A DNA stretch of 24,571 nt, from positions 1 through 24,571 of IMG/VR virus record IMGVR_UViG_3300024273_001473. One strand, written 5' to 3'. This document shows, in pieces, positions 441 to 22,767 of this stretch (position 1 is the stretch's first letter; each line of letters starts with the position of its first letter). Source of the DNA: a virus. The position numbers and the translations under genes were made by a program. The notes under the pieces were generated by a model, which ran no database searches, was not told the DNA's origin, and worked only from the letters and a program-made list of their open reading frames with translations.

Positions 441-887
441 ATGAGTAGCTTAGAAAAAAATCTTTACAAAAATTTAAAAATACAATCTCTAAAGAGAGAA
501 GCGCCTCTGGTAACCCAGGGCACTTACCGAGGTATTAGCACTGTAAATCCCGACAGTAAAGAATTTAGATTATATGATTTAGCACTTATTAAACAAGATA
601 TTGTGAATCATTTTCATATAAGACTTGGCGAAAAATTAGAAAATCCAGGTTTTGGAACAATAATATGGGATATACTTTACGATCCGCTCACTGACAATCT
701 CAAGGACATTATTGTACAGAACGTAACTCAGATTATTACTATTCATGAAAAACGTGTAAGAGTCAATAACGTGTCTGTTAGCAGCTACGAAAGCGGCATA
801 CAAATTGAGTGCGACTTAACATATTTAGAGTACAGTATTAGCGAAAAACTAAGGTTTAGTTTTGACCAGCAAAACGGCTTAATTTAA
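441..887 (+). CDS. 25: gp25-like baseplate wedge protein
   Basis: The 148-residue protein fits the GpW/gp25 family, slightly longer than T4 gp25 (about 132 residues). This family forms part of the inner baseplate wedge next to the sheath and is related to TssE of type VI secretion. Visible support is the order of elements: a charged N-terminal helix, LALIKQDIVNHFHIRLGE (near residues 48-65), the NPGFGTIIWD segment that is the family's best signature (near 68-77), a helix, then E-K-R at 103-105 followed by VRVNNVSV and a final beta strand. The usual E-P-R triad therefore reads E-K-R here. The ATG at 441 has a weak AAGG about 10 bases upstream. The gp6-like gene follows, as is usual in marine T4-like phages. 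Family assignment is strong; the role is inferred from the family. Confidence 0.9.
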   Translation: MSSLEKNLYKNLKIQSLKREAPLVTQGTYRGISTVNPDSKEFRLYDLALIKQDIVNHFHIRLGEKLENPGFGTIIWDILYDPLTDNLKDIIVQNVTQIITIHEKRVRVNNVSVSSYESGIQIECDLTYLEYSISEKLRFSFDQQNGLI

Positions 888-908
888 TATACGCACTTTT
901 TAAATATC

Positions 909-915
909 ATAAATA
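909..915 (+). promoter_or_regulatory. candidate T4-type late promoter core (ATAAATA) before gp6
   Basis: The gap between the gp25 and gp6 genes contains CATAAATA at 908-915, one base off the T4 late consensus TATAAATA. A weaker TTTAAATA lies at 899-906. Transcription would begin near 921, followed by an AAGGAAG ribosome binding site at 927-933 and the ATG at 939. The placement makes sense for a late leader. The call is inferred from motif and position only. Confidence 0.55.
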
Positions 916-938
916 TTAGATAAATTAAGGAAGTGTAA

Positions 939-3900
939 ATGTCATCTACTGATAGACAAAACAGACTATTACTAGCTGAAGATTGGAAAACAATCTATCA
1001 GAGTTTTAAGTATGCAGATTTTAAAAGTTACGACTTTGACAATCTTCGTCGTACAATGATCGAGTACCTGCGTACCAACTACCCAGAAGACTTTAACGAT
1101 TATATCGAGTCGAGCGAATACCTTGCACTCATAGATATGATTGCATTTCTTGGTCAGAACATCAGCTTCCGTATAGACTTAAATGCAAGAGAAAACTTCC
1201 TTGAGTTAGCAGAACGTAGAGAGTCTGTACTTCGTCTTGCTCGTTTAATATCTTACAATGTTACTAGGAACCAATCAGCAAACGGACTATTAAAATTTAC
1301 CGGCGTCAAAACCAGTGAACAAATTATTGACAGCAACGGTGTAAATCTTGCCAACAGCAATATCAATTGGAATGACACTACAAACCCTGATTGGTATGAG
1401 CAGTTCACTAAAGTATTAAATGCTTCGTTGCCAGTAAACAACACTGTTGGCAGACCTTCTAAATTAGAAAACATTGACGGCATTGCAACTGAGCAATACA
1501 GATTAAACAACCTAACTAGTGCTAGCAGCATTTTTACGTTTTCCAAAGCAATTAACAGCAAAACACTTAATTTTGAAATTGTCAGTACAAACATTGTTGG
1601 CGGCGAAATTTTAGAAGAACCACCTTTACCTGGAGGCCAGTTTGCATTTATCTATAGGGACAACGGCCAAGGCGCAGGCAGCTCAAGTACAGGATTTTTT
1701 GCACATTTTAGACAAGGTACAATTCAAAAAGGCGACTTTGCTATTGATTCTCCTGTGCCAAATCAAAAAATTGATATCAACAGTGCAAACATCAACAACA
1801 GCGATGTCTGGCTTTACAAATTAAACTCAAACAATACCGAAGAAGAGTTGTGGTCAAAAGTTGATGCTGTTGAAGGAAACAATGTTGTTTACAACAGTCT
1901 TAGCAAAGGCATTAGAAGCATTTATAGCGTACTTACTAGAACACAAGACAGAGTTAGTCTGATGTTTAGTGACGGTATTTTTGGAACTCTTCCAAAGGGA
2001 TCGTTTAGAGTTTATTATAGAACCAGTGCTAATGCAGATTATATAATAACTCCTGCTAGTATGCAAGGTATTTCTATGCGTATTCCGTATCTAAGTAGAA
2101 CCGGACGAACAGAAACCCTTACAGTATACTTGGATTTACAAACACCTGTTGACAATGCCAGTGCTACAGAAACAACAGAAAGTGTTAAAACAAATGCACC
2201 CAGCACCTACTATACTCAAAACAGACTTATTACAGCCGAGGATTACAACCTAGGTCCTTTGGGAATTAGTCAGCAAATTATTAAAACTAAAAGTGTAAAC
2301 AGAACTGCCAGCGGCATTAGTAGATATTATGATATTTTAGATGCCACAGGAAAATACAGTAAAACAAACCTGTTTGGAACTGACGGCGTACTATACAAAG
2401 AATATTTAGATAAAATAAAAAACTTTAAGTTTATCACAAGAACTGATATTGCAAAAAATATTAACAATACTATTGTTCCTATACTAGCAGAAATTGGAAC
2501 AAGAAATTTTTATCTCAACGAGTTTCCAAGCCAGGATTATTCCGAATTAAATTTACGCTGGGATCAAGCAACAGCTGATACTAATATAAGCACAGGTCGA
2601 ATTTACGATGAAAATTCAATCTATTATACAGTTGGAAGTTTCACCGAAGGTCCGTTGAGATTCTTGGAATCTGGTGCCCTTGCAAAATTCGTTGCACCTG
2701 CCGGTTATGCATTTTTAAATAATAAGATAGTAGTAGCAAAAGGCGTAAAAACAGAATCTACTTATATCTGGTCAAAGGTTGTAAGCACCTCGGGCACAGG
2801 TAAAGAACTGAATTCAGACGATTCGGGCCCTATAACTTTTAATGACATTATACCAACAAACGCAATCTTGCAATCTATCACTCCTAAATTTGTTAGAGAT
2901 TTATCACCTGACATACAAACGCAAATAATCGACAACGTATTTGCATACAGAACTTTTGGTCTACGTTATGACAGACAGTTGAGAGTATGGGATATTATTT
3001 CGCAGGACGACTTGGATTCAAATTCTAAGTTTAGCTTGGGATTAACCGGCGATACATCTGGACAACAATTAGACAGCAGCTGGATATTACTTTTTGAAAC
3101 CAACGGAGTTTCTTACAATATCACACACAGAGTTCTTCGCTATATATTTGAAAGTGATGCCGAAGTTAGATTTTACTTCGACAACAATAAAAAAATATAC
3201 GATAGTAAAACAGGAGAAATAGTCAAAGATAAAATTTCTGTTTTAAACATTAATAATGACATCAATACAGGCAGCGGCACCAGTCCTTATACTGTTGATT
3301 TTGACTGGGGAATAGCTAGCGAATATAGAGATGCAGCTGGATATGTTGACAGTAAAAAAGTCGAAGTGACTTTTTATGACAGCGACGATGACGGCGTTAT
3401 TGATAACCCAGAATTGTTTGATGAATTAGTTGATACTACAAATTATATCTTTACTAAAAAGACAGTTCTTAATAATACAGAATTTCAAATCTATGTAGAT
3501 ACTAATGAAGAAAACATTCAAACTATTAATATTGGCGAATCGCCAAACATGCTAGCAGAAAACAATCCTATATTTTATATTGTAGCAGACGATGTATTTA
3601 AACAACTCAACAGTACCACAAGATCTCTTACTGAGCTTTATGTTTATAATGCATACATCGGAAGAAGCGGAATCAAATTCCAGTATGTACATGCTGCTGA
3701 CGAAAACTCTCGTATTGATCCTAGCAGTACAAATATTATTGACACATACATATTGACAAAATCTTATGATACTACTTTTAGACAGTTTGTCTCAGGTGCT
3801 ATACCAACTAGACCACTGCCGCCAAGTTCAGACCAATTGTTTAGAAGTTATGGATCAGAAATTAACAAAATTAAAAGCATCAGCGACGAAGTAATTTATC

Positions 3901-4373
3901 ATCCGGTAAAATACAAAAGTTTATTTGGAAGCAACAGCGACTTGGATTTACAAGCAGTATTTAAAATAGTTAAAAATGAAAATAGAGTAGTAAGCAACAA
4001 CGATGTTAAAGCAAGAGTTATAACTGCAATTAATGAATTTTTTGCATTAGACAATTGGGACTTTGGCGAAACATTTTATTTTAGTGAGTTGTCAGCATAT
4101 ATCATGAAAAAAGTATCACCTGATATTGTAAGTATTGTGATAGTACCAAGAAACGCTTCTCAAAATTTTGGAAGTTTGTTTGAAGTAAAATGCGAAGTTG
4201 ACGAAATTTTTATTAGTAATGCAATTGTAGATGATATTGAAATCATTACAGCACTTACAGAAGAAAGATTAAGAGCTGGAGGCGCGATAACAACTAGTGT
4301 TTCGTCTTCAAATGCAGGCATACAAAGTTCACCACCTACTAGTTCAACACCCACCGGAGGAATTATTTACTAA
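939..4373 (+). CDS. 6: gp6-like baseplate wedge protein
   Basis: The 1,144-residue protein is a long version of T4 gp6 (about 660 residues), which dimerises around the baseplate and ties the wedges into a ring. The N-terminus carries the pattern I know from marine T4-like gp6 proteins: LLLAEDWKTIYQSF (about 10-23), DFDNLRRTMIEYLR, a YPEDFNDYIESSEYLALIDM segment, and a long helix ending RRESVLRLARLISYN. A baseplate-J-like part includes NRLITAEDYNLGPLG (about 428-442). The C-terminal region (about 1006-1117) has VKARVITAINEFFAL and FYFSELSAYIMKKVSPDI, typical of the gp6/J family end. Residues 814-825 form a perfect EF-hand-type loop, D-S-D-D-D-G-V-I-D-N-P-E. The last 30 or so residues are Ser/Thr/Pro/Gly-rich. 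A strong AAGGAAG lies 5 bases before the ATG. The stop overlaps the next start (TAATG), suggesting coupled translation. Confidence 0.92.
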   Translation: MSSTDRQNRLLLAEDWKTIYQSFKYADFKSYDFDNLRRTMIEYLRTNYPEDFNDYIESSEYLALIDMIAFLGQNISFRIDLNARENFLELAERRESVLRLARLISYNVTRNQSANGLLKFTGVKTSEQIIDSNGVNLANSNINWNDTTNPDWYEQFTKVLNASLPVNNTVGRPSKLENIDGIATEQYRLNNLTSASSIFTFSKAINSKTLNFEIVSTNIVGGEILEEPPLPGGQFAFIYRDNGQGAGSSSTGFFAHFRQGTIQKGDFAIDSPVPNQKIDINSANINNSDVWLYKLNSNNTEEELWSKVDAVEGNNVVYNSLSKGIRSIYSVLTRTQDRVSLMFSDGIFGTLPKGSFRVYYRTSANADYIITPASMQGISMRIPYLSRTGRTETLTVYLDLQTPVDNASATETTESVKTNAPSTYYTQNRLITAEDYNLGPLGISQQIIKTKSVNRTASGISRYYDILDATGKYSKTNLFGTDGVLYKEYLDKIKNFKFITRTDIAKNINNTIVPILAEIGTRNFYLNEFPSQDYSELNLRWDQATADTNISTGRIYDENSIYYTVGSFTEGPLRFLESGALAKFVAPAGYAFLNNKIVVAKGVKTESTYIWSKVVSTSGTGKELNSDDSGPITFNDIIPTNAILQSITPKFVRDLSPDIQTQIIDNVFAYRTFGLRYDRQLRVWDIISQDDLDSNSKFSLGLTGDTSGQQLDSSWILLFETNGVSYNITHRVLRYIFESDAEVRFYFDNNKKIYDSKTGEIVKDKISVLNINNDINTGSGTSPYTVDFDWGIASEYRDAAGYVDSKKVEVTFYDSDDDGVIDNPELFDELVDTTNYIFTKKTVLNNTEFQIYVDTNEENIQTINIGESPNMLAENNPIFYIVADDVFKQLNSTTRSLTELYVYNAYIGRSGIKFQYVHAADENSRIDPSSTNIIDTYILTKSYDTTFRQFVSGAIPTRPLPPSSDQLFRSYGSEINKIKSISDEVIYHPVKYKSLFGSNSDLDLQAVFKIVKNENRVVSNNDVKARVITAINEFFALDNWDFGETFYFSELSAYIMKKVSPDIVSIVIVPRNASQNFGSLFEVKCEVDEIFISNAIVDDIEIITALTEERLRAGGAITTSVSSSNAGIQSSPPTSSTPTGGIIY
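4356..4361 (+). promoter_or_regulatory. ribosome binding site for the giant gene, inside the end of gp6
   Basis: GGAGGA lies 11 bases before the ATG at 4373 and is embedded in the last codons of the gp6 gene. With the TAATG stop/start overlap it implies that the giant gene is translated from the gp6 message. No separate late-promoter core was seen at this junction. Confidence 0.6.
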
Positions 4374-7300
4374 TGGCATACGATAAAGATCAAAACGAAT
4401 CTGCCTTACCTGTTAACGGCACTGGCGACACCAGCGCATCAAATTTCCTTCCGAAGTATTTTAGAACAGATACAAATAAGAAATTTATTAATTCTACTAT
4501 AGACCAAATGATTAAGCCTGGTGTAGTTGAAAAAATAAACAGCTTTGCCGGACGTCGATATGCAAAAGCAGCATCTGCATCTGATAGCTATTTGGCAGAT
4601 GTAAGTGCAACTAGAGAAAATTACCAATTTGAACCAGCAATGGTTTACAAGGACGAACTTGATAATGTAGAATTCTTTAAAGACTATACTGACTTTTTGG
4701 GACAATTATCTAATTTTAAAGGTAATACTAGTAACCACAGTGTGCTGAACAGCCAGGAATTTTATGCATGGAACCCTCATATCGATTGGGATAAGTTTAC
4801 AAACTTCCGTGAGTATTATTGGCTACCTATGGGCCCGACTCCGATTGCCATTGCCGGTCAAACAAAAGATATCGTTAGCACTTACACCGTTGGACTAGAG
4901 TGGGATGGCGACAACTATGCATTTGTCTTCTCTCCAAACGGCTTTACAAGAAATCCAAGATTAAAATTATACAGAGGACAAACATATCGTTTTGAAATCA
5001 GTGCAGTTGGGCATCCTATGGCATTTGCTCTTAGCAGAGTGTTTAGTGATCAAGATACTACACCTGCGTACGATCCTTTAAATGTAAGCACGTTGTATAA
5101 AAATGGTATTAAAAAATACGAATATGATGCCGAAGGAAAACTTGTAGAAACAACAAATGACTATATTGAAAACGGCGTAATTGAGTTTACAGTTTCTGAA
5201 ACTTCGCCCAACACTCTTTATTATATCAGCCAAAACGATATCAATGTTAGTGGTATTGCATCAACTTACGAAATTACAGAAGCAACTGAATTTAACGTAG
5301 AAGAAGAACTACTAGGTAAAAAAACTTACAAAACAGATGCAGGAATTGATATCAGTAACGGTATGAAACTGTCTTTCCAAGGTACTGTAACCCCTGCCGA
5401 ATACCGTACAGGATACTGGTATGTTGAGGGTGTAGGCAGTGCAATCAAACTTGTGCCCGAAGCAAGTTTAGAAGTTCCTGCAATCTTTACAAGCAATTTT
5501 AATATTCCGTTTGATAATTATGGATTTGATAATTACCCATTTGAGGATGCAACCAGCTATCCTGGCACCGTTGATTATATTGTTATTAATCGTAGCAGCG
5601 CAGACCGAAACCCCTGGAGTAGATACAACCGTTGGTTTCACAAAGATGTTGTCGAAGCTAGTGCGCTAGCTAATGGACAGCCAGTTGACTTTGATCAAAA
5701 CGCCAGAGCCAAGCGTCCTATTATTGAATTTGAAGCAGGACTAAAACTGTATGATCACGGCGCCAAATCAAAACAAAATGTGCAATTAGTTGATACATTT
5801 ACAACTGATGTGTTCAGTACAATCGAAGGAAGTATTGGCTACAACGTCGACGGCGTTGATTTAGTTGACGGCATGAGAGTGCTGTTTACTGCTGACACCG
5901 ATATATTAGTTAATGGAAAAATCTATCAAGTTAAGTTTATTACACATAATTCGCGTAGACAAATTGCACTAATTGAAACAGATGATTCAGTTCCTGCAAT
6001 CAACGACACTGTACTAGTTTTAAAAGGAAACAATTTTGCTGGAAATATGTTCTATTACAACGGAACAAAATGGACAGCATCTCAAGATAAAACTTCAATA
6101 AATCAGTTTCCGCTGTTTGACTTGTTTGACGAAAATGGAAATAGCTATTCTGATTCAGTTCATTATCCTGCTAGTAACTTTAGCGGAAGTATGCTTTTCA
6201 ATTACAAGGTTGGTACAGGAACAAATGATACCGAATTAGGGTTTCCATTAAGCTACAGAAACATCTCGAATGTTGGAGATATTGTATTTGATTTTAGCTT
6301 ACTGTCTGAAGCAATTCGCTATCAAGATAATAATAATGATGTGTTGGTTAGTACTGACATTGCTTTCTTAAAAAAGTATAACTCAGCTGGCAATGATTTT
6401 ATTTACGAAAATGGCTGGAAAAAAGCTATTGCAAAAAGCAAACAAAGCGTTATTAGAAATAGAATTATCGTTACTCAGTTTAACAACTTTCCAATTGATG
6501 TTTATGACAACAGTGCTGGTTTAACTGATCTAATTGTCAACGTATGGGTCAACGGAGCAAGAAAATACGAAACAACTGATTATGTTATTTCAAGAAACAA
6601 CGGAGTTGCATACGTTGTCTTTAATTCTCAGTTATCAGTAGATAATATTTTATTAATTAAAACACATAGTAGTGCAAGCAAAAACGCCAACGGACTGTAC
6701 GAAATTCCAATCAACTTTGAAAAGAATCCGTTAAACGACAACATCACAGCAGTTACACTTGGTGAAATTAATGATCACGTTGATAGTATATCTGACAATC
6801 ACCCGGAGTTCAACGGCGTATTTCCTGGCACTGGCAACCTAAGAGACATTGGCAATCTCACTGCATACGGCAGACGCTTTGTACAACACAGCGGCCCGTT
6901 CAATCTGGCATTATATAACTTAACTGACAAAAATGCAAACTTAATAAAATCTCTTAAATTTGCTAGAAAAGAATATGCAAAATTTAAAAGGCAGTTTATC
7001 TACGAAGCAAATCAAACAGGTTTCCATGGTAGTGCTAAAGATCACGTCGACCTAGTATTGAAAAAAATTGCAGAATCTAAAACTGCATATAGACCGTTCT
7101 ATTTTAGCGATATGGCGGGTGTAGGAGCGTCTACTAAAACTGTGCATTCTGTAGAGTACAATGGCCCTGCGTATTTTGCTCTAAGTAGATCGTTTGATTT
7201 GGAAACACTATCAATTAAAGCAGTTAGCGTATACCTAAATGGTATTCAACTAATGCATAATAAAGATTATATATTCTCGGATAGCTTTGTATATGTTTCA

Positions 7301-10300
7301 CTTGATTTAGTAGATAGTGACATTGTTGAAGTTTATGAATACGAAAGTACAGCAGGATCTTATATTCCGCCTACTCCGACTAAATTAGGACTGTATCCAA
7401 AATTCCAACCAATGATAATTTCTGATAACACCTACTTAGAAACAGTCAACATGATTCAAGGTCACGACGGTAGTTTAGTAAAAACCTTCGGCGACTATAG
7501 AGATGACTTGATTCTTGAATTAGAAATGAGAATCTTCAATAATATTAAATGCAACTACAATACCGATTCTCTTAATATCTTTGATTTCGTTCCTGGAATC
7601 AACAGAGAAACTGGAATTACTAAAAGCAGTATTGACACTATATTATTAGCAGACTTTGCTCAATGGCTAGAACTTGCAGGCTCGCCTGATTACAGTAGTA
7701 ATATATCGTGGAGTGAACTCAACGGGTTTACTTTTAATTATTCCGAGATGGGCGATCTTGCAGGTAATGCATTATCAGGCTACTGGCGTTCTGTTTACAA
7801 GACTTATTTTGATACAGACAGGCCACATACTCATCCTTGGGAAATGATAGGATTTACAATCAAGCCAACATGGTTTGAAAATGTGTACGGACCTGCACCA
7901 TACACAAAAGACAATACCATACTATGGACAGACCTGTCAGAGGGTATAATCAGAGAACCTGGACAGCCACTTATAAGAGACACTAAATTTATACGTTTGT
8001 CACTGTTGAATAATATTCCAGTTGACGAATATGGTAGATTACAGAATCCTCTGGATTGCGGATTAGCACAGTATTTTTCTTTAGTACCAACAAAAGATAA
8101 TTTTGCATTTGGCAACGAAGCACCTGTTGAAACTGCATGGAGACGCAGCAGCGAATATCCGTTTAGCTTAATTACTGCGTGGGCTATTTTACAGCCTGCA
8201 CAATTGCTGGGTCTTGGATTTGATTGTTCGAGAATCAAACGAGATATAGTTGGCAATTTGGTATATACGCCAACAAACAAACGTATTAGATTAGAAGATT
8301 TGGTATTTCCGTCAATCAGCACAACCCAGCCTCTTGTTTTAACCAGTGGACTGGTTAACTATATTGCCAATTATATGGTAAACAAAGTAACCACAAAATA
8401 CGAAACATACAAAACTCAACTTGCTAATAGTAAAAATCAACTAGCTGTTAAGCTGGGCGGCTTTGCAGACAAGACTAAACTGAAATTAGTTCTTGACAGT
8501 CGCAGCCCATTAAACAAGTCTAGTGTGTTTGTGCCAGATGAAAACTATCAAATTTTCTTTAATGTAAGCAGCCCGTTAGCAACTCCGGTGTTTAGTGGAA
8601 TTATGATTGAAAAAAGTTCTACTGGTTATATTGTAACCGGCTACGACAAAGAGGATCCGGTTTTTAATTACAATGCACCAATTATTAGACAAACAGACAG
8701 TGCAATCACAGTAGGCGGAATAAGCGAATCATATGTAAATTGGGATACCGATACACAATATGTTTCTGGCACTGTGGTATTTAATAGTGGAAAATATTAC
8801 AGAACAGTTAGTACTCATGTTAGCGGAATATCGTTTGATGCAACAAAATTCTCAACATTGCCATCACTGCCAATCACAGGCGGAGTAACTTCTCTGTTAC
8901 GTAACGAATTTTTTAATGAGGTTAGTTCATTACCATACGGAACTGTTCTTACTTCGGTCCAAGCAATTTCAGACTTTATGTTAGGATACGAAAACTACCT
9001 AGTTAATCAAGGATTTGAATTTAGTTTTTACAATAAAAATACCGAAGCACTCGAAGACATGAAGTTATGTCTAAAAGAATTTATGTTTTGGGTAACACAA
9101 AATTGGGATATTGGAACAGTATTAACTATTAGCCCGGCAGCAAATCAACTTAAATTTACTAGAGACTATTATATAGTTGACGACATTTATGATGGATTCT
9201 ATGATGTAAGTGTTCTTAGTGGGTCGGGTACACGCCTAAAATCAGAGTTTAGTAATATATTTAGATCTGACCAAAATGAATTTGGTATTAAGCCACAGAA
9301 TACCGACGACGGAATTTATCTTGCTAAACTTCCGTTGGTTCAAAAAGAACATGTTATTTTAATTGACAACCAAACAGTGTTTAATGATACTATCTATGAT
9401 GTTGCTCCTGGATACAGACAAGACAGAATTAAACTTGTTGGATATAGAACTGACAACTGGACAGGTGGATTGCACATACCGGGATTCTTCTACGATGATG
9501 CAAAAGTTTCACAATGGGCTATCTGGACAGATTATGCAATTGGAGCTGTTGTAAAACAAAACGAGTTTTATTATGCAGCAAACACCAAGCATTCTAGTAC
9601 AGATGTGTTTGATTCTAGTAACTGGAATATTCTAGCAGAAAAACCACAGCCTGCATTATATCCAAACTGGGACTATAAAGTAAATCAGTTTACAGATTTT
9701 TATGACCTGGATACTGATAACTTTGATACAGAACAGCAACGCCTTGGACAGCATTTAATCGGATACCAACCACGCGAGTATCTTAAAAATATTATTACTG
9801 ATAGTGTAAGCCAGTATAAATTTTATCAGGGCTTTATACAAGACAAAGGTACAACAAATAGTTTAACAAAGCTGTTTGATGCATTAAGTAGCGCTGACAA
9901 AGATAGTCTAGAGTTTTACGAAGAGTGGGCATTTAGACTTGGCCAGTATGGCGCAGTTGAAAACACTTACGAAGTAGAATACGAATTAGACGAAAATAAA
10001 TTTAAAATTGAGCCGCAATTATTTGAATTAAACAATTCAATAAGCAGTTCTAGAACAGACTTGGTATACGAAATTGCTCCACACCAGGCGCTATTAAAAC
10101 CGTCTGATTATACTCACTCAATCTTTATTGAAAAATCAGATACAGAAGTTATAGGATTTGACAGCGGATATGTTCGCAACAGCGATGTTGACTATGTTGC
10201 AATAGTAAAAGAGCAACTTACATTTCTTCCTATTAATGATGTAAATATTGGAAACTTTATCTGGGTACAAAAAGAAAATCAAGACTGGACTGTTTACAGA

Positions 10301-13300
10301 AACGTTGCAACTGATAACCCGGTTATTGATATTATTCCTGCGTTGCCTGAAGATAGAGGAATTACTTTAGAGGCCGGTGAAACAAATACAGGATTTACAA
10401 TTTACTTTGAACACAATGTAACAGATTTTGTTGATGAGGATATTATTGGCATACGTTCCGGAGTTGCGTCAATTAACGGATTCTTTAAGATCAAGGACGT
10501 ATTCTTAAATCAAGTAGTAGTACTAACTACAGTGCCTATTAGTAACGAAGAATATAACGACAGTTCTGTGGCTGGAATTAGTAAATTTGTTGAAAGACGT
10601 TTTGCCGATGCAACGGATTTAAACAGTAATATTAAAAACATTGTTAATAACATTGACGATAAAGTTTGGATCGACGACACTGGCAACGGAACCTTTGGCG
10701 TGTTTACAAACAAAAGTGTATTCTCAATTCAAGAAGAATTATTAAATCCAACTGGCAATGACGACAACTTTGCTTCGAGCTTTGATGTAAACAAGTCCAA
10801 CACTGTGATGGTAGTAAATGCTGTTGGCAACGAATCGGTTTATGTATTCAAGCGTAACGCTGAAAGTTTTACAAAAACACTATCGCAGACGTTTATTCCT
10901 GACAACACAATTGACGTAAACTCTGAATTTGGTTTTGATGTTGCAATTAGTGCCGATGCAAGATACGTTGCTGTTGGTGCTCCTTTTGCTAGTAATGTTA
11001 AAACAAAACTTGTAGGTATATTGTCGCCAACTGGAAATTATAATACCGGCGATGTTGTAAGTGACAGAGGAACACTATGGCGTGCAAAAGTAGATGTCGC
11101 AGGTGACAACAGTACAATTACCAATCTAACTCAGGATTGGGAACCAGTTTATTTGCTTGAAGCAACTGATGCCGGCACTGCAAGTGGATTGGCAACCCAG
11201 GGCGTTGTTTATCTTTATAAATTAAACTTAACAACCAACACTTATAATTTAGAACATGTTGTAGTAAGCCCTATTCCTGCCGCAGAAGAAAGATTTGGTT
11301 ACAAAATTGAATTAAGACAAACGTCTTACGGTACTACCAAGTTGTTTGTTGGTGCCCCCGGCGAAAATAATATTGACCAAGGCCGCATTTATTTCTTTGA
11401 AACTGATAACAGCGGAGCATGGACTCACAGTAAAGATCGTAATTACAAAGGCGAATGGTCTCTAAGTGGTGCGTATAACGAAAATGAAATTGTGTTCTTA
11501 GACGGAGTATTATATCAGGCAACAACAAATGGTGTAACAGAAAATCCAAACTCTAGTATAAAATGGAAACTTGCAGAGGTAGCAGAATATACTGGACATA
11601 TTCCACACAATCTTTATCTTGATACCGACACTGACAATAATACTGTATACAACCTGTCTACAAATATCGGTGTAAAGTTTGATGTTAACGAAACTGGCGA
11701 TGTTATTGCATTATCAGCAAGTGCAGATTACGGATTACTTGCACAGGATGTAACAATAAAAACAGAAAGAGTTTCAATTTTTGAAAATCAAACCGGACGT
11801 TGGACATTCTTACAGTATGTTGATGCAGAGGATAGCGTTGATGGATTTGGGTATGTTGTAGCACTTAATGAGTCAGGTAACGCCCTTGCAATCAGCGCAC
11901 CGGTAAACGATGACAGAGGAATAGACCAAGGCGTGGTTTACATTTACCAAAGAACCACAGTCGACAATATTTCTTCATATAATTTATCACAAACTTTACA
12001 AAGTCCTTTTGCAGAAGAAAACGAAGTGTTTGGCACAGGCATTAGCTTTAGCAACAACAAACTTGCCATCAGTGGAAAAAATACTGATGCAAGAATTACA
12101 ACAACGTTTGATCGTTATTCTCAGATTGAGTTTACAATGGTAGCAAGAGACACTCTTGGCAATCCTGTGTATTCTCGATATGTGTTAGATGAAACAAGTA
12201 CAGAAACTACTTTAAAAACTACGTTTGACGGAAACAACACAAGTTTTATCACAGTAGAAAAAGATACTGGAAGAATAGCAGTGTTCCAAGAAATTGGCAA
12301 TGCATTTGTTTATGGTGAAGATTTAGAATACAACAGAAATACAAAGTACAACGATATTTCTAATTTTAAAATAAACAACAACCACTTGTACATTGGATTC
12401 CCTGAATTAAATCCTGCTACTGCATCAACCACTGTGTTGCAGCCCGGTTACCTTAGTACTGAGGATAGTTCTCTTGGAATGTTGGTTGATATGCGTTCTG
12501 ACATAAATGTTGATAGTTGGGAAGAACTATCTGCCGAGTCAGGCAAAATAGATTTAAATAAAATTTCCAAAGTATTCTTGTACAGTAAAACAACCAATGA
12601 TATTATTGCCAATCTTGATTTAATTGATCCACGCCAAGGTAAAATACCTGGCATAGCAGAACAAGAACTATCGTTTAAAACATTTTATGATCCTGCGGTA
12701 TACTCTGCTAATCAAAATAGTTTAAGCGGAGTAACAGTTGATAATTCTGCAAACTGGACAGAAAATTATGTAGGTAAACTTTGGTGGTCAATTGTTTCTG
12801 CAACATGGATGAATCCTTATCAGGGCGATGTTCAGTATAGAGCAGCAACTTGGAATAGACTAGCGGACAGCGGCAGCATTGAAGTTTATGAGTGGGTTAA
12901 GACTACGCTAACTCCGACTCAGTGGAGAGCACAAGCAGATACATCTGAAGGATTTGCAAAAGGCATAAGTGGTACGCCAAAGTATGACGATTCTGTTTTC
13001 AGCGCTGATATTAGTGTAGATGCAATCAGCGGAAGACCAACAACAAACTATTTTTACTGGGTAAGAAACAATAGAATTATTCCTCGCGGTATTAGAAGAC
13101 GCATCAGTTGTTATGATGTGGAACAAATAATTAGAAATCCTGCTGCAACTGGCTATAGATACATTGCACCACTTGACACAAACAAGTTTGCATTGTATAA
13201 TGTACAGAGCCTAATTGAAGGAACTGATACAGTATTGCATATCTCGTTTAAGCGAGACGAAAAACTACAAACAAATGTTCACAGCGAATATCAACTTCTA

Positions 13301-16300
13301 ACTGAAGGACTAGACGTTTCTATTCCAAATGCAGAAATTGAGCAAAAATGGATTGACAGTTTAGTGGGTTATGATTTAGCAAACAATCCAGTACCTGACA
13401 CTGATTTATCTCCTAAGCAAAAATACGGAATATTAAACAGTCCACGTCAAGGAATGTTTGTTAACAGACTTGAAGCAGTTAAGCAGTTTGTTGAACGAGT
13501 CAATATTGTATTATTGGCCAATCAAACAGTTGATAACTATATTCTTGATCAGTTGCTTTTAGTTGACGAAGCACCGTTGTTGATTACAGGAAAGTACGAT
13601 CAGGCAGTAGATTTAGTAAGCGACCTTGATTTTGTGGGTGTAGCAAAAGTAGAACAAGCTATACTAACTCCGGTTATCGAAAACGGCAAAATTATCAGTG
13701 TCACTATAACCAAGCCAGGCAGAGGTTACAAAGTTGCTCCGGTGATTGATATAAACACCAACACAGGCACCGGAGCAATATTAATATCAGCAATAAACAA
13801 TCTTGGTCAGATTACTAGTGTAACTGTAAAAAATCAAGGTAAGAAGTATGACCCAAGTACTAATTTACAAGTTCGCAAGTTTAGCGTTCTTGTTAACGCC
13901 GACGCTGATATTGGCGGACGTTGGGCAATATACTCTTGGTCATTTGCTGCTCAGGTATGGGAAAGAAATGATATACAATCATTCAATACAACCAATTACT
14001 GGGAGTATGCAGATTGGTATGCAACAGATTATAGCGAACTAACTGCAATAGATCAAGTTATTGATCAAAGCTATCAGCTGTTTGGAATTAGTGATTCCAT
14101 TGGGGATATTGTAAAAATCAATACAATCGGCTCGGGCGGATGGTTACTACTTGAAAAAATTGACAGTCAACTTACAGAAGATTACACAGTTAATTACAAA
14201 ACAATCGGTCGCCAAAACGGCACAATACAGCTTTTGACAAGATTGTACGATTATGCAACTGTAACAAGCGGTTACGATGCAATGATATATGATAATACAT
14301 TCTATGACAGAGAGCCTATTGCCGAACTAAGAAACATACATGCAGCACTTAAAAACGACATTTTTGTTGGCGACCTAGCAGTTGAGTATAACAACTTGTT
14401 CTTTGCTGGTATACGTTACGCATTTAGCGAGCAGTCAAATATTGACTGGGCATTTAAAACTAGCTTTATTAGAGCAAAACACAACCTTGGTGGCCTTTCA
14501 CAGAAAGTTACATTCCAAAATGATAACTTAGAAAACTACGAAGAATATGTAAATGAAGTTAAGCCATACAGTTCAAAAATAAGAGAATACATCAGCGCTT
14601 ATAATCAAATTGAATCAACGGTTAGTTTAACAACTGACTTTGACGTTCCGCCTAGTTATAACACTACAACCAAAGAAATTGAAACAATCGAAGCAAAACT
14701 TAATAATGATACAATTTCTAACATTGTTGACAAGTACATGGATTATCCGTACAAGAGCTGGGTTGACAACAACGGCTACGATGTTGTTGAAATCAGAATA
14801 GCAAATGGCGGATCTGGTTATAAAGAAACTCCTGTTGTAAATGTATCTGGAAACAACGGCACTACTGCACAGGCATATTTGAGCCGTGGCAGAGTATCGG
14901 TTATCAAGATTACAAACACTGGCGGAAAGTATTACACAGCCCCGGTAATTACTATAGACGGAACACTTGAAGAAGGTGCCACCCCAGCAAAAGCAGTTGC
15001 AATTTTAGGCAACGGCGTTGTAAGAAAAGCACACTTAACTATCAAGTTTGACAGAGTTAAAGGAACTTATCTTCTTACTGATCTTAATGTTACCGAAACA
15101 TTTACAGGCACTGGCGCAAACCAAGTGTTTAATTTAAAATGGCCAATGAGTATTAGAACAGACAGCTTTAGCTTGTATGTCGATAATAAACTACAACTCA
15201 GCAGCGAATATAAAGTATCCAACACATTGGATACAAGTAAAGGCTACGACAGATATTTAGGCAAAGTTGAGTTTACAAATGCTCCTGCAACCGGCAGCGT
15301 AGTTACTATAAACTATAAAAAAGATGTGTCTATGCTTGATGCAGCTGATAGAATTTATTCTTTCTATAACCCAACTGCCGGAATGCCTGGTAAAGATTTA
15401 TCTCAACTAATGGACGGTGTAGAATATAGCGGAGCCATTTACAACAGTATTGACTTTGGTACTACACAAGGGTGGGATCCAGATTCGAGATTCGACCAAG
15501 GGTTTGGATCAACTCCGTGGGATACATTTGATAACACATACCAAGACGAAATTTTTGTGTTAGACGAAAGTACTACTGTATTTGAACTGGCCGCACCGCT
15601 TGAAGCCGGCGTTGCATATAACGTTTATTTAAACAACGTTCGTTTAGACGACACGGGCTATGACGGAAGTAGTGCTGTTACTAATCCAAATGCAGTAATG
15701 CAAACAATCATCGGCGACGGTGTAACAACTGTTGTTATATTTAATGAAGAAAACATATCAACTTCTGCAAACGATGTTGTTATTATTAGAAAATCAACTA
15801 GCGACGGTAGCTTTACACCTACAGAAAACAGCTACGATACTGCACTTGGCGGAGGCAACTTAACATACACAACTGCAACTGGTCTATCAAGTGCAGATAT
15901 TACAGTAGACGGCGACGGCTTTGTTACTCCTACTACAAGCGCAGGCCCAGAAGAACTTGTCCCGGGTCAGTTAGTCGACACACTTGATATCAGAGTTTAT
16001 CACAGACCTAGCAACGGCGTAGGAATTATTGGCGTTGCAAGTTATAAACTTGGCGTTGGCATAACAGAATTTGCTCTTCCACAAATACCTCACACTGGTG
16101 ATAGTGCAATTATTAAAATTGACGGAGAAATTTTAGATTCGTCATTGTATACAATAAACTGGAAAGCAGGCACACTAACAATTGATGACAGCAGCCTGGG
16201 TGATAACTTATCTATTGTAACAATAGGCACAAATGGTATAGATATCATTGACACAGGTTCGTCAGTATTTGATGGTAGCACATTAAACTATAAAACTGCT

Positions 16301-18229
16301 GCAATTTACAGTGAGGCAATATCAGCTCTTGTAACTATAAATGGAAGAGTCCTGGCTGCCGGAGCAGAATACGAATTAGTAGAAGGCAGCGATCTTCGTG
16401 CTGAAATTTTGTTAACAACACCTGCTATAGAAGAAGGAAATTTAATACAGTATACAGTTTATGACTCACTTCTTCAGACATACAGTAGAATACAAATTGA
16501 CAATACTTTTGAATCAAATGGTGAAAATAAGTATCATACATTCAATGCAGAAGGTCCTATTCCGTTTACTGAGAGACCTTTCTCCCACAAGACTTTGGTC
16601 AAGAGTAACAATCGTATTCTAAGTCCGGGTTACAGTATTTCGTACACTGCAACTACTGAAAGAGACTACGACATCGAAGCATGGCAGTTTGCCAACATTT
16701 CATACATTCCGGCAGCAGAAGTTTTAGTTTATGTTGACGGTGTAAGACTTACAACTGAACAAGTTACTTACGATCCTGTAAATTCTAGAATAAGAATACT
16801 TAGAAATGATATTGCAACTATAGGTAGCAAAATTGAAATTTATGTTATCAACGGCGCAGATTATTTCTTTGTAGACACTCAAATAGATTTTGCAAGTGTG
16901 GATAGCAGTGTGCTAAATATTGAAAGTTATGTAACTGTCGGCGCAGAAATTAGAATGATTTCTACAATAGACAGTAATGTATACACTGGAACAGTGAAAT
17001 CTGTTAATGGAAACAGTGTTGTTATTGAAACATATCGTCCTGATATACGAGATGCATTTGTATTAGATCCAGAATTTATGGTTGATATATCAGACGGTGA
17101 CAGTTCTCTGTTGTTAGTCACTGATGTATTGTATATAGAAAGCGATAGCTTGACATTTGCTGTTCCACCAAGCAGTGGCGAAAATATTGAAATCTATACC
17201 TTCAGTAATCACGATGTTAACAACTTTTCTCGTATGACATATGATGTAGTTTCAAAAACTGTAGTTGCAGCAGGAGCAGATGATTACGTTAAAAGAAACT
17301 TGTTAACACGCGGCATACTAAAGTTAAGAGAAGCTGTTTACGGAACTCCTTATGTTTGGGTTGCAGTAAACGGAGAACTGTTAACTCCGTATGTTGATTA
17401 TACAGTAGTAGATTCGTTGGATGCTGTACAATTAAAAGTTGTTCCGCAAGAAAACGATCGCATTGATGTATTGCAGTTTGGTGCAGCACCTATTACGCCA
17501 AAATATGGATATCGTATATTTAAAGATATGCTAAACAGAACGCACTACAAGCGCCTTAACCAAGACAACAGCTATACTCTAGCATCTCCGCTTAATTACT
17601 ACGATGCTAGAATTTTATTAGATGATGCAACTGGAATTTTCCAACCAAGTCGTTCTAAAAATATACCTGGTGTGTTATTCATCGAAGGAGAGCGTATTGA
17701 GTACTTTGAGGTCAGAGGAAACGCATTGTTACAACTAAGAAGAGGTACATTGGGTACTGGTGTCCGAACTGTATACGCCGAAGGCATGTACTTATACGGA
17801 CAGGGTCCTGAAGAAACGGTTACCTATCAAGACAGAGTTCTTAGACAAACAATGACAGCAGATGGCATTAGCCTAGCTTATTCGTTGGACTTTATTCCTG
17901 GTAGCATTAACGAAATTGATGTATTCTTAGGCGGCACTAGATTGAGAAATACTTCTATTGAAGTATATCAGCCTAACATAGCACAAGACAGCAATGAAGG
18001 CAATATTACTATTTCTGCAGAATTTAGAGTTGTTGGCAGCACTCTTTATATAGAACCTAGAGATACAACTACAGGTGAAATAATTACGCCTGCCCTTTGG
18101 GAAGATCAGCGTATTGAAGTAGTAAGAAAAATTGGAAAAGTTTGGAATGAACCAGGCAAAACATTAGCAGAATCAAATAATGAGATTAGCAATTTCTTAC
18201 GCAAAGCAACAATTCGCTTACCAAAATAA
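4373..18229 (+). CDS. giant multidomain baseplate/virion structural protein (4,618 residues)
   Basis: One intact frame of 13.9 kb. Residues about 24-156 (FLPKYFRTDTNKKFINST to EYYWLPMGP) match, from memory, the N-terminus of the large structural protein that follows gp6 in marine T4-like phages. Domains seen by eye: cupredoxin-like fold at about 195-300 without metal ligands; NPWSRYNRWFHKDV near 413; wedge-type core at about 799-1315; two carbohydrate-binding-like modules near 1455-1490 and 1712-1757; conserved QYKFYQGF segment near 1815; FG-GAP-type propeller at about 2130-2580 with two more binding-like modules near 2223-2259 and 2368-2402; LWW...YRAATWNRL near 2803; two G-x-G-Y modules near 3098-3160 and 3472-3528; about ten V-x-V-N-G beta-sandwich repeats, mostly after 3570; GERIEYFEVRGN and RRGTLGT near 4443-4463; and a final SNNEISNFLRKA. 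By eye there are only five cysteines. By position it probably replaces T4 gp7 and perhaps gp8-gp10. Structural role is likely; exact function is unknown. Confidence 0.85.
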   Translation: MAYDKDQNESALPVNGTGDTSASNFLPKYFRTDTNKKFINSTIDQMIKPGVVEKINSFAGRRYAKAASASDSYLADVSATRENYQFEPAMVYKDELDNVEFFKDYTDFLGQLSNFKGNTSNHSVLNSQEFYAWNPHIDWDKFTNFREYYWLPMGPTPIAIAGQTKDIVSTYTVGLEWDGDNYAFVFSPNGFTRNPRLKLYRGQTYRFEISAVGHPMAFALSRVFSDQDTTPAYDPLNVSTLYKNGIKKYEYDAEGKLVETTNDYIENGVIEFTVSETSPNTLYYISQNDINVSGIASTYEITEATEFNVEEELLGKKTYKTDAGIDISNGMKLSFQGTVTPAEYRTGYWYVEGVGSAIKLVPEASLEVPAIFTSNFNIPFDNYGFDNYPFEDATSYPGTVDYIVINRSSADRNPWSRYNRWFHKDVVEASALANGQPVDFDQNARAKRPIIEFEAGLKLYDHGAKSKQNVQLVDTFTTDVFSTIEGSIGYNVDGVDLVDGMRVLFTADTDILVNGKIYQVKFITHNSRRQIALIETDDSVPAINDTVLVLKGNNFAGNMFYYNGTKWTASQDKTSINQFPLFDLFDENGNSYSDSVHYPASNFSGSMLFNYKVGTGTNDTELGFPLSYRNISNVGDIVFDFSLLSEAIRYQDNNNDVLVSTDIAFLKKYNSAGNDFIYENGWKKAIAKSKQSVIRNRIIVTQFNNFPIDVYDNSAGLTDLIVNVWVNGARKYETTDYVISRNNGVAYVVFNSQLSVDNILLIKTHSSASKNANGLYEIPINFEKNPLNDNITAVTLGEINDHVDSISDNHPEFNGVFPGTGNLRDIGNLTAYGRRFVQHSGPFNLALYNLTDKNANLIKSLKFARKEYAKFKRQFIYEANQTGFHGSAKDHVDLVLKKIAESKTAYRPFYFSDMAGVGASTKTVHSVEYNGPAYFALSRSFDLETLSIKAVSVYLNGIQLMHNKDYIFSDSFVYVSLDLVDSDIVEVYEYESTAGSYIPPTPTKLGLYPKFQPMIISDNTYLETVNMIQGHDGSLVKTFGDYRDDLILELEMRIFNNIKCNYNTDSLNIFDFVPGINRETGITKSSIDTILLADFAQWLELAGSPDYSSNISWSELNGFTFNYSEMGDLAGNALSGYWRSVYKTYFDTDRPHTHPWEMIGFTIKPTWFENVYGPAPYTKDNTILWTDLSEGIIREPGQPLIRDTKFIRLSLLNNIPVDEYGRLQNPLDCGLAQYFSLVPTKDNFAFGNEAPVETAWRRSSEYPFSLITAWAILQPAQLLGLGFDCSRIKRDIVGNLVYTPTNKRIRLEDLVFPSISTTQPLVLTSGLVNYIANYMVNKVTTKYETYKTQLANSKNQLAVKLGGFADKTKLKLVLDSRSPLNKSSVFVPDENYQIFFNVSSPLATPVFSGIMIEKSSTGYIVTGYDKEDPVFNYNAPIIRQTDSAITVGGISESYVNWDTDTQYVSGTVVFNSGKYYRTVSTHVSGISFDATKFSTLPSLPITGGVTSLLRNEFFNEVSSLPYGTVLTSVQAISDFMLGYENYLVNQGFEFSFYNKNTEALEDMKLCLKEFMFWVTQNWDIGTVLTISPAANQLKFTRDYYIVDDIYDGFYDVSVLSGSGTRLKSEFSNIFRSDQNEFGIKPQNTDDGIYLAKLPLVQKEHVILIDNQTVFNDTIYDVAPGYRQDRIKLVGYRTDNWTGGLHIPGFFYDDAKVSQWAIWTDYAIGAVVKQNEFYYAANTKHSSTDVFDSSNWNILAEKPQPALYPNWDYKVNQFTDFYDLDTDNFDTEQQRLGQHLIGYQPREYLKNIITDSVSQYKFYQGFIQDKGTTNSLTKLFDALSSADKDSLEFYEEWAFRLGQYGAVENTYEVEYELDENKFKIEPQLFELNNSISSSRTDLVYEIAPHQALLKPSDYTHSIFIEKSDTEVIGFDSGYVRNSDVDYVAIVKEQLTFLPINDVNIGNFIWVQKENQDWTVYRNVATDNPVIDIIPALPEDRGITLEAGETNTGFTIYFEHNVTDFVDEDIIGIRSGVASINGFFKIKDVFLNQVVVLTTVPISNEEYNDSSVAGISKFVERRFADATDLNSNIKNIVNNIDDKVWIDDTGNGTFGVFTNKSVFSIQEELLNPTGNDDNFASSFDVNKSNTVMVVNAVGNESVYVFKRNAESFTKTLSQTFIPDNTIDVNSEFGFDVAISADARYVAVGAPFASNVKTKLVGILSPTGNYNTGDVVSDRGTLWRAKVDVAGDNSTITNLTQDWEPVYLLEATDAGTASGLATQGVVYLYKLNLTTNTYNLEHVVVSPIPAAEERFGYKIELRQTSYGTTKLFVGAPGENNIDQGRIYFFETDNSGAWTHSKDRNYKGEWSLSGAYNENEIVFLDGVLYQATTNGVTENPNSSIKWKLAEVAEYTGHIPHNLYLDTDTDNNTVYNLSTNIGVKFDVNETGDVIALSASADYGLLAQDVTIKTERVSIFENQTGRWTFLQYVDAEDSVDGFGYVVALNESGNALAISAPVNDDRGIDQGVVYIYQRTTVDNISSYNLSQTLQSPFAEENEVFGTGISFSNNKLAISGKNTDARITTTFDRYSQIEFTMVARDTLGNPVYSRYVLDETSTETTLKTTFDGNNTSFITVEKDTGRIAVFQEIGNAFVYGEDLEYNRNTKYNDISNFKINNNHLYIGFPELNPATASTTVLQPGYLSTEDSSLGMLVDMRSDINVDSWEELSAESGKIDLNKISKVFLYSKTTNDIIANLDLIDPRQGKIPGIAEQELSFKTFYDPAVYSANQNSLSGVTVDNSANWTENYVGKLWWSIVSATWMNPYQGDVQYRAATWNRLADSGSIEVYEWVKTTLTPTQWRAQADTSEGFAKGISGTPKYDDSVFSADISVDAISGRPTTNYFYWVRNNRIIPRGIRRRISCYDVEQIIRNPAATGYRYIAPLDTNKFALYNVQSLIEGTDTVLHISFKRDEKLQTNVHSEYQLLTEGLDVSIPNAEIEQKWIDSLVGYDLANNPVPDTDLSPKQKYGILNSPRQGMFVNRLEAVKQFVERVNIVLLANQTVDNYILDQLLLVDEAPLLITGKYDQAVDLVSDLDFVGVAKVEQAILTPVIENGKIISVTITKPGRGYKVAPVIDINTNTGTGAILISAINNLGQITSVTVKNQGKKYDPSTNLQVRKFSVLVNADADIGGRWAIYSWSFAAQVWERNDIQSFNTTNYWEYADWYATDYSELTAIDQVIDQSYQLFGISDSIGDIVKINTIGSGGWLLLEKIDSQLTEDYTVNYKTIGRQNGTIQLLTRLYDYATVTSGYDAMIYDNTFYDREPIAELRNIHAALKNDIFVGDLAVEYNNLFFAGIRYAFSEQSNIDWAFKTSFIRAKHNLGGLSQKVTFQNDNLENYEEYVNEVKPYSSKIREYISAYNQIESTVSLTTDFDVPPSYNTTTKEIETIEAKLNNDTISNIVDKYMDYPYKSWVDNNGYDVVEIRIANGGSGYKETPVVNVSGNNGTTAQAYLSRGRVSVIKITNTGGKYYTAPVITIDGTLEEGATPAKAVAILGNGVVRKAHLTIKFDRVKGTYLLTDLNVTETFTGTGANQVFNLKWPMSIRTDSFSLYVDNKLQLSSEYKVSNTLDTSKGYDRYLGKVEFTNAPATGSVVTINYKKDVSMLDAADRIYSFYNPTAGMPGKDLSQLMDGVEYSGAIYNSIDFGTTQGWDPDSRFDQGFGSTPWDTFDNTYQDEIFVLDESTTVFELAAPLEAGVAYNVYLNNVRLDDTGYDGSSAVTNPNAVMQTIIGDGVTTVVIFNEENISTSANDVVIIRKSTSDGSFTPTENSYDTALGGGNLTYTTATGLSSADITVDGDGFVTPTTSAGPEELVPGQLVDTLDIRVYHRPSNGVGIIGVASYKLGVGITEFALPQIPHTGDSAIIKIDGEILDSSLYTINWKAGTLTIDDSSLGDNLSIVTIGTNGIDIIDTGSSVFDGSTLNYKTAAIYSEAISALVTINGRVLAAGAEYELVEGSDLRAEILLTTPAIEEGNLIQYTVYDSLLQTYSRIQIDNTFESNGENKYHTFNAEGPIPFTERPFSHKTLVKSNNRILSPGYSISYTATTERDYDIEAWQFANISYIPAAEVLVYVDGVRLTTEQVTYDPVNSRIRILRNDIATIGSKIEIYVINGADYFFVDTQIDFASVDSSVLNIESYVTVGAEIRMISTIDSNVYTGTVKSVNGNSVVIETYRPDIRDAFVLDPEFMVDISDGDSSLLLVTDVLYIESDSLTFAVPPSSGENIEIYTFSNHDVNNFSRMTYDVVSKTVVAAGADDYVKRNLLTRGILKLREAVYGTPYVWVAVNGELLTPYVDYTVVDSLDAVQLKVVPQENDRIDVLQFGAAPITPKYGYRIFKDMLNRTHYKRLNQDNSYTLASPLNYYDARILLDDATGIFQPSRSKNIPGVLFIEGERIEYFEVRGNALLQLRRGTLGTGVRTVYAEGMYLYGQGPEETVTYQDRVLRQTMTADGISLAYSLDFIPGSINEIDVFLGGTRLRNTSIEVYQPNIAQDSNEGNITISAEFRVVGSTLYIEPRDTTTGEIITPALWEDQRIEVVRKIGKVWNEPGKTLAESNNEISNFLRKATIRLPK

Positions 18230-18232
18230 ATA
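18226..18232 (+). promoter_or_regulatory. candidate late promoter core (ATAAATA) overlapping the giant gene's stop
   Basis: AATAAATAC covers the TAA stop at 18227-18229 and lies 17 bases before the next ATG at 18250. It differs from TATAAATA by one base. Transcription would start near 18238, just at the GAGGTG ribosome binding site (18239-18244), so the leader would be very short. Motif-based inference. Confidence 0.5.
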
Positions 18233-18249
18233 CAGTATGAGGTGTAACA

Positions 18250-18861
18250 ATGACAGAGATTAATGAACTAAACGGAATACATGTAGAAGGTCATATCAAA
18301 ATTCATGATCCTTCTACAGGTGAAATTTTTATAAACAAGCGTAATGCAATACATTACGAAAATATGAGTTTGGCATTAGCCGAGAGTCTTGCTAACCAAG
18401 GACAAGGATTTATATACGAAATGAGTTTTGGTAATGGAGGAACAAGTGTTGATCCTACTGGAATTATTACGTACCTAACTCCTAACACCACTGGCACTAA
18501 TGCAAGTCTTTACAATCAAACTTATACAAAAGTAGTTGACGATACTAGTGTTAACAACACTGACCCTACTAGGAATAAAACTGAAATTAGGCACGTTAGT
18601 GGTACTAATTATACTGACATTGTAGTAAGTTGTTTGCTGGATTACGGCGAACCAGACGGCCAAGATGCATACGATACTGCAAGCAATACTGAGCAGTTAT
18701 ATGTATTTGACGAACTAGGATTGCGTAGTTATAGCAGTTCTGGTGCCGGAAGATTAATAACACATGTTATTTTTCACCCTGTACAAAAAAGTTTAAACAG
18801 ATTGATTCAAATTGACTATACTGTAAGAGTACAAAGTCTAAGTGGATTTAATGAGGTATAA
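18250..18861 (+). CDS. conserved phage virion protein of unknown role (203 residues)
   Basis: The protein starts NGIHVEGHIKIHDPSTGEI near residue 8, continues with the striking NAIHYENMSLALAESLANQ near 27-45, then MSFGNGGTSVDPTGIITYL, LLDYGEPDGQ and VFDELGLRSY. I associate this pattern with an unnamed structural protein near the baseplate and fibre genes of marine T4-like phages; it does not resemble T4 gp8, which is longer. No signal peptide, membrane segment or catalytic motif is visible. The start ATG has GAGGTG five bases upstream. Only two bases separate its stop from the next start (TAATAATG), and the GAGG for that gene is inside this one, so the two are probably co-translated. A wedge-periphery or fibre-attachment role is a guess from position. 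Confidence 0.75.
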   Translation: MTEINELNGIHVEGHIKIHDPSTGEIFINKRNAIHYENMSLALAESLANQGQGFIYEMSFGNGGTSVDPTGIITYLTPNTTGTNASLYNQTYTKVVDDTSVNNTDPTRNKTEIRHVSGTNYTDIVVSCLLDYGEPDGQDAYDTASNTEQLYVFDELGLRSYSSSGAGRLITHVIFHPVQKSLNRLIQIDYTVRVQSLSGFNEV

Positions 18862-18863
18862 TA

Positions 18864-22751: not shown

Positions 22752-22758
22752 AAGGGTG
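22752..22758 (+). promoter_or_regulatory. ribosome binding site that decides the start of fibre paralog 3
   Basis: AAGGGTG lies upstream of two in-frame starts: a GTG at 22756, which is part of this motif, and an ATG at 22768. Because the GTG overlaps the binding site and the ATG gives MAYTIN, matching MAYEIN and MSYKIN in the paralogs, the ATG is preferred. Confidence 0.65.
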
Positions 22759-22767
22759 ATTTCAAAA

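Follow-up and report, generated by a model that had tools for sequence, protein, structure and literature searches.

The 24.6-kb IMG/VR fragment analysed here (from here: the window) contains on its plus strand a gene for a protein of 4,618 aa (4373..18229), which belongs, as an ordinary member, to a known and widespread family of giant tail-baseplate proteins in large and T4-like phages. This giant protein is probably a wedge organiser of the gp7/gpI/TssG class, the insertions and C-terminal extension of which would have become docking and display modules.

The giant gene is a single open reading frame with an ATG start and zero internal stops, and the coordinates given in the initial annotation for one unbroken frame were exact. 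The ATG and the gp6 homologue's stop codon overlap by a single base (TAATG), a coupling similarly tight to that in T4, where the gp6 and gp7 genes overlap by 4 bases. The start is conserved in the relatives, the N-terminus of which reads MAYxxDQN. In related viral contigs the giant gene was one stop-free frame in all cases tested (24/24). Moreover, the dN/dS ratio against the nearest relative was 0.05-0.13 in every 400-codon block; hence, the entire length is maintained as protein. A chance or artefactual reading frame, or a fusion generated by misassembly, is therefore already refuted and practically out of the question: no supporting point was found for it, and it is contradicted by the intact relatives, by the low dN/dS in each block and by the presence of homologous peptides in virions (PMC5259590).

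The gene set around the giant gene is the baseplate wedge cluster of a contractile tail, encoded entirely on the plus strand. Upstream lies a gp25-like wedge protein or sheath initiator (441..887; PF04965, phrog_261), followed by a gp6-like wedge protein (939..4373; phrog_10646, E 1.3e-291; phrog_219, E 3.8e-25) that has 1,144 aa compared to about 660 aa of T4 gp6. Its gp6 counterpart in Vibrio phage 2.275.O carries a CBM5/12 annotation, so the same add-on modules may invade gp6 too. Downstream of the giant gene, a conserved 203-aa partner protein with no assigned function (phrog_11259; 18250..18861) precedes three fibre/collar paralogues in tandem (18864-20909, 20909-22729 and 22756-24222) with a common N-terminal anchor. 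The N-terminal 200-340 residues of these paralogues are 30-41% identical and their C-termini differ, suggesting one anchor with different tips. The phrog_11259 protein is the best conserved among the downstream proteins compared, with 74-96% identity in environmental relatives versus roughly 42-78% for the giant protein. Its homologues adjoin the giant gene in PA5oct, where the product was detected by MS, and in Atu_ph07, SCTP-2, Phosso and Vibrio phage 2.275.O.

The giant protein matched the profile of phrog_10938 (E=0, 1067 bits; 3,324 columns), annotated as ‘virion structural protein’, and tblastn homologues were found only in jumbo phages (PA5oct-like phages, Atu_ph07, Phosso, SCTP-2, RaK2, GAP32, CBB, 121Q and others). 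As in the window, the gene directly follows the gp25 and gp6 homologues in the phrog_10938 jumbo phages, namely in PA5oct (gp355, 3,857 aa), Atu_ph07 (gp180, 4,449 aa), Phosso (4,555 aa), RaK2 and GAP32 (gp230 in the latter; about 3,330-3,340 aa) and Vibrio phage 2.275.O (3,771 aa), while CBB_236 (3,340 aa) adjoins the baseplate-wedge gene 237. This shared order of gp25, gp6 and giant genes supports the assignment as wedge organiser. Two points stand against it here: in Salicola phage SCTP-2 the gp6 homologue is located elsewhere, about 100 kb from the giant gene gp140 (3,807 aa), and PHROGs places phrog_10938 in the category ‘head and packaging’. SCTP-2 also possesses a second giant gene, gp141 (3,096 aa; 4627-13917 of the SCTP-2 stretch analysed), immediately before gp140.

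Together with the phrog_10938 match, virion proteomics of homologues supports the wedge-organiser assignment. In purified CBB virions, gene product 236 was identified by 21 peptides covering 7.7% of it (PMC5259590), and the PA5oct record for gp355 carries the note ‘ESI-MS/MS’. Judged by these homologues, absence of the giant protein from virions is unlikely.

A scan of IMG/VR yielded at least 595 confirmed matching stretches, and 20 full-length relatives ranged from 4,451 to 5,609 aa. T4-type Gp23 capsid genes were present in five of the nine longer related contigs searched. Megablast among phages returned zero matches, and a sequence search of the PDB found no relative (best E 0.13, an unrelated cupin). 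Foldseek searches with the fold of residues 1-1200 gave viral matches with E values down to 0 (Atu_ph07, E 4e-73). In cyanophage S-SM1, the same slot after gp25 and gp6 is occupied by SSM1_102 (phrog_701), a protein of 6,180 aa; its gene (822-19364 of the S-SM1 stretch analysed) is annotated just as hypothetical (T4-like GC 969). The size and domain variety that the initial annotation had considered notable do not set the protein apart: in view of its uncultured relatives, the Phosso and Atu_ph07 homologues and the S-SM1 protein, such a length is normal for this slot in large or marine phages of the T4 superfamily.

An alignment of 28 family members was used to map conservation. Conservation reaches into the RaK2 group for residues 1-160, 401-900, 1001-1900, 2711-3080 and 3200-3450. 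In RaK2, GAP32 and the Vibrio phage, residues 151-380 and the greater part of 1991-2703 are either absent or reduced in length. The conserved N-terminal region (residues 1-160; 4373..4852), with the motif LPxYFRTxxNKKFLxST, has a putative wedge-core role. It is followed by a family-specific core common to the jumbo phages (residues 401-1700; 5573..9472) and by the most conserved segment (residues 1768-1930; 9674..10162), which contains a helix-KGT-helix as a candidate gp7/gpI-class element. Two further core blocks comprise residues 2711-3080 (12503..13612) and 3200-3450 (13970..14722), the latter with the motif SEQxxVDWxFKTSFIKAKHN. This contrast between a conserved core and variable, indel-prone module regions argues for the wedge-organiser assignment. 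By our own estimate the modules make up roughly one third of the length, and the remainder is core sequence, conserved within this family and specific to it.

The description of the protein as a chain of many unrelated modules was borne out in part: most of the named modules are real, yet they belong to only about five types, three of which are repeated (13 copies). Structure models were obtained for residues 1-1200 (mean pLDDT 80, 65 sequences) and 1640-2760 (mean pLDDT 68), the latter being confident over about 1930-2760 and low before. These models show distinct folds, such as a cupredoxin and a propeller, consistent with the separately folded modules proposed at the outset. One repeated fold over most of the length was ruled out by repeat counting; the largest repeat family has seven copies of about 45-75 residues.

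The cupredoxin-fold module (residues 165-303; 4865..5281) aligned over 97 residues (VIA Z 9.8, rmsd 2.2) and matched rusticyanin with a Foldseek probability of 1.00. The ligand set of a type-1 copper site (His, Cys, His, Met) is missing: residues 161-310 lack Cys and the single His214 is unconserved. A copper protein was therefore rejected, and the missing ligands suggest a scaffold use of the fold. The second large module is a β-propeller of the FG-GAP type (residues 2114-2710; 10712..12502; Z about 24), which aligned with integrin alpha-M and WD40 propellers over 295-360 residues at an rmsd of about 3. FG-GAP_2 (PF14312) scored 24.4 bits against a cut-off of 23, and 38.2 bits when the segment was searched.

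The CBM5/12-like, G-x-G-Y and β-sandwich copies were located with HMMs built from the giant protein itself, which gave zero matches in the reversed sequence. There are four CBM5/12-like modules, at residues 1454-1496 (8732..8860; found by Pfam and our own HMM), 1712-1754 (9506..9634), 2214-2259 (11012..11149) and 2359-2401 (11447..11575), the last three found by our own HMM and the last two nested in the propeller. The Pfam score for CBM5/12 was 24.6 bits, just below the curated cut-off of 26.2, so we use the label ‘CBM5/12-like’ only. Two G-x-G-Y modules occupy residues 3097-3160 (13661..13852), shared with the S-SM1 giant protein, and 3467-3545 (14771..15007). A fibre-type β-sandwich repeat with the consensus VyVnGxxLxxxxDYxv occurs in seven copies, at residues 722-767 (6536..6673), 950-992 (7220..7348), 3598-3651 (15164..15325), 3911-3952 (16103..16228), 3984-4032 (16322..16468), 4116-4160 (16718..16852) and 4327-4371 (17351..17485). 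The region of the first copy (residues 692-764) aligned with chain 8i4m_M of the tail complex of cyanophage P-SCSP1u (Z 8.6, rmsd 2.2, 68 residues).

Variation within the family has its hot spot in the propeller. Most of the longer environmental relatives carry an insert of about 0.5-0.7 kaa inside CBM-like module 3, itself inside the propeller; in six relatives it was placed around residue 2200-2900 of the giant protein. An insert within a module within the propeller amounts to nested insertion at one hot spot.

The relation to T4 gp7 was addressed by profile and fold comparisons. The T4 gp7 family phrog_964 was absent among the profile matches at E<=0.1, and aligning T4 gp7 with the window family by hhalign gave P 0.55 at full length and no match in sliding segments. 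The missing profile match counts against a wedge organiser; the positive control, P2 gpI versus T4 gp7, was likewise unmatched (P 0.17), and the profile-profile method is thus insensitive here. The N-terminus had initially been described as wedge-type. It yielded no gp7 profile match and only short low-confidence helices in the model (residues 1-110), so that this designation can be used only in a putative sense. Neither T4 gp7 nor TssG was among the fold matches listed, where propellers fill the list for residues 1640-2760 and cupredoxins that for 1-1200. For the helix-turn-helix that would contribute to the core bundle of this class, the models show low-confidence helices, and the trifurcation fold was likewise absent among the matches listed.

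The helix-KGT-helix at residues 1817-1835 reads FYQGFIQDKGTTNSLTKLF, compared to FYSTKGIEASYKFLF in T4 gp7 and HCHKGTIGAIRRV in P2 gpI, and a helix-KG(T/I)-helix pattern is also found in the S-SM1 and Melnitz-3 proteins. When gpI was aligned with residues 1726-1925 and the neighbouring segments, the two KGT motifs coincided in three segments that overlap one another (P 0.0034-0.0056; no correction for the 60 segments). An unrelated segment ranked slightly above these with P 0.0025 and the KGT match was not significant after correction; the alignment is therefore suggestive only. T4 gp7 matched the S-SM1 protein at the KGT motif with P 4.5e-6, and a combined KGT HMM gave sub-significant matches, mostly at the KGT site. 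The KGT region is modelled with low confidence in the monomer, and this, like the low-confidence N-terminus and the loss of significance upon correction, weighs against the wedge-organiser assignment. In its favour are the helix-KG(T/I)-helix segment as such and the fibre-like genes that follow directly. The position of the giant gene directly after the gp6/gpJ/TssF homologue also agrees with the gp7/gpI/TssG class.

According to the mechanism that we propose, the phage would be a contractile member of the T4 superfamily with the giant protein in the gp7 position of the wedge. A discontinuous core, consisting of the N-terminus and residues 401-1930, 2711-3080 and 3200-3450, would pair with two copies of gp6 and with gp25, and core, (gp6)2 and gp25 would together build each of the six wedges. 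The insertions between the core parts (cupredoxin, CBM-like, FG-GAP propeller, G-x-G-Y) would radiate outwards, as would the C-terminal β-sandwich tail, and these outward modules may provide docking sites for the fibres encoded just downstream as well as surface modules. The pairing with gp6, the stoichiometry, the outward display and the docking of fibres are features that we infer.

Alternatively, the giant protein could be a peripheral protein of the baseplate or of a fibre network, encoded after gp6 by coincidence, with the true gp7-class core residing in another gene, e.g. within the large gp6 homologue. The undetected homology to T4 gp7, the many fibre-type modules, the unusual length of the gp6 homologue and the separation of gp6 and giant gene in SCTP-2 would all fit such a peripheral protein. 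We nevertheless consider it unlikely, given that the gene order points to the giant gene and the window holds no other gp7 candidate, that the KGT motif is present, and that blocks in which clade members show an identity of 0.5-0.7 are kept into RaK2-like phages.

The modules might also be active binders of receptors or polysaccharides, which would make the giant protein the main adsorption protein and the determinant of host range. Such a function and a wedge role are compatible. The CBM5/12-like modules and the FG-GAP propeller, which has insertions nested in it where the protein varies most, are what one would look to as such binders, yet three dedicated fibre/collar paralogues are encoded just downstream, the CBM5/12 scores lie under the Pfam cut-off and the cupredoxin without metal ligands suggests scaffold use; on the sequence evidence we regard a main adsorption function as improbable. 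A combination of both roles is conceivable, if only tentatively: the wedge organiser may swap surface-recognition modules by nested insertion at the hot spot, where an extra domain sits in a CBM-like module that in turn lies in a propeller blade, and the wedge core may thereby share in host recognition besides the separate fibres.

A wedge-organiser function would tie a giant and usually unannotated protein of uncultured phage genomes to a definite position in the baseplate. The residue map divides its conserved core from exchangeable modules. It can now be tested how many extra domains a wedge protein is able to bear and whether these domains contribute to adsorption.

Among the known systems close to the giant protein, its relatives in uncultured phages of IMG/VR have the same gene and modules at 42-78% identity. 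To the phrog_10938 proteins of jumbo phages it is homologous over most of its length, with the same conserved blocks, but identity is 24-33% where aligned and the module complement differs: in RaK2 and GAP32 the homologue has no cupredoxin and is missing most of the propeller region, and the first G-x-G-Y region is absent from the PA5oct homologue. With S-SM1 SSM1_102 it has G-x-G-Y modules in common (P 4e-11) and similar β-sandwich repeats, whereas the cyanophage protein is longer, has modules of its own and shows no detectable core homology beyond the short KGT pattern. The pairs gp6/gp7, gpJ/gpI and TssF/TssG are considered to correspond to each other (PMC6300606), and T4 gp7 and P2 gpI are likewise encoded directly after gp6 and gpJ. 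T4 gp7, P2 gpI, XM1 gp17 and TssG differ from the giant protein in their size of about 176-1,032 aa and have no significant profile match to it. TssG of the type VI system has two inserted loops, each of which anchors a TssK trimer (PMC6300606), and inserted parts of XM1 gp17 bind the tail spikes (PMC10457771). By analogy, these small members may provide the precedent for modules carried on a wedge protein (PMC6300606, PMC10457771).
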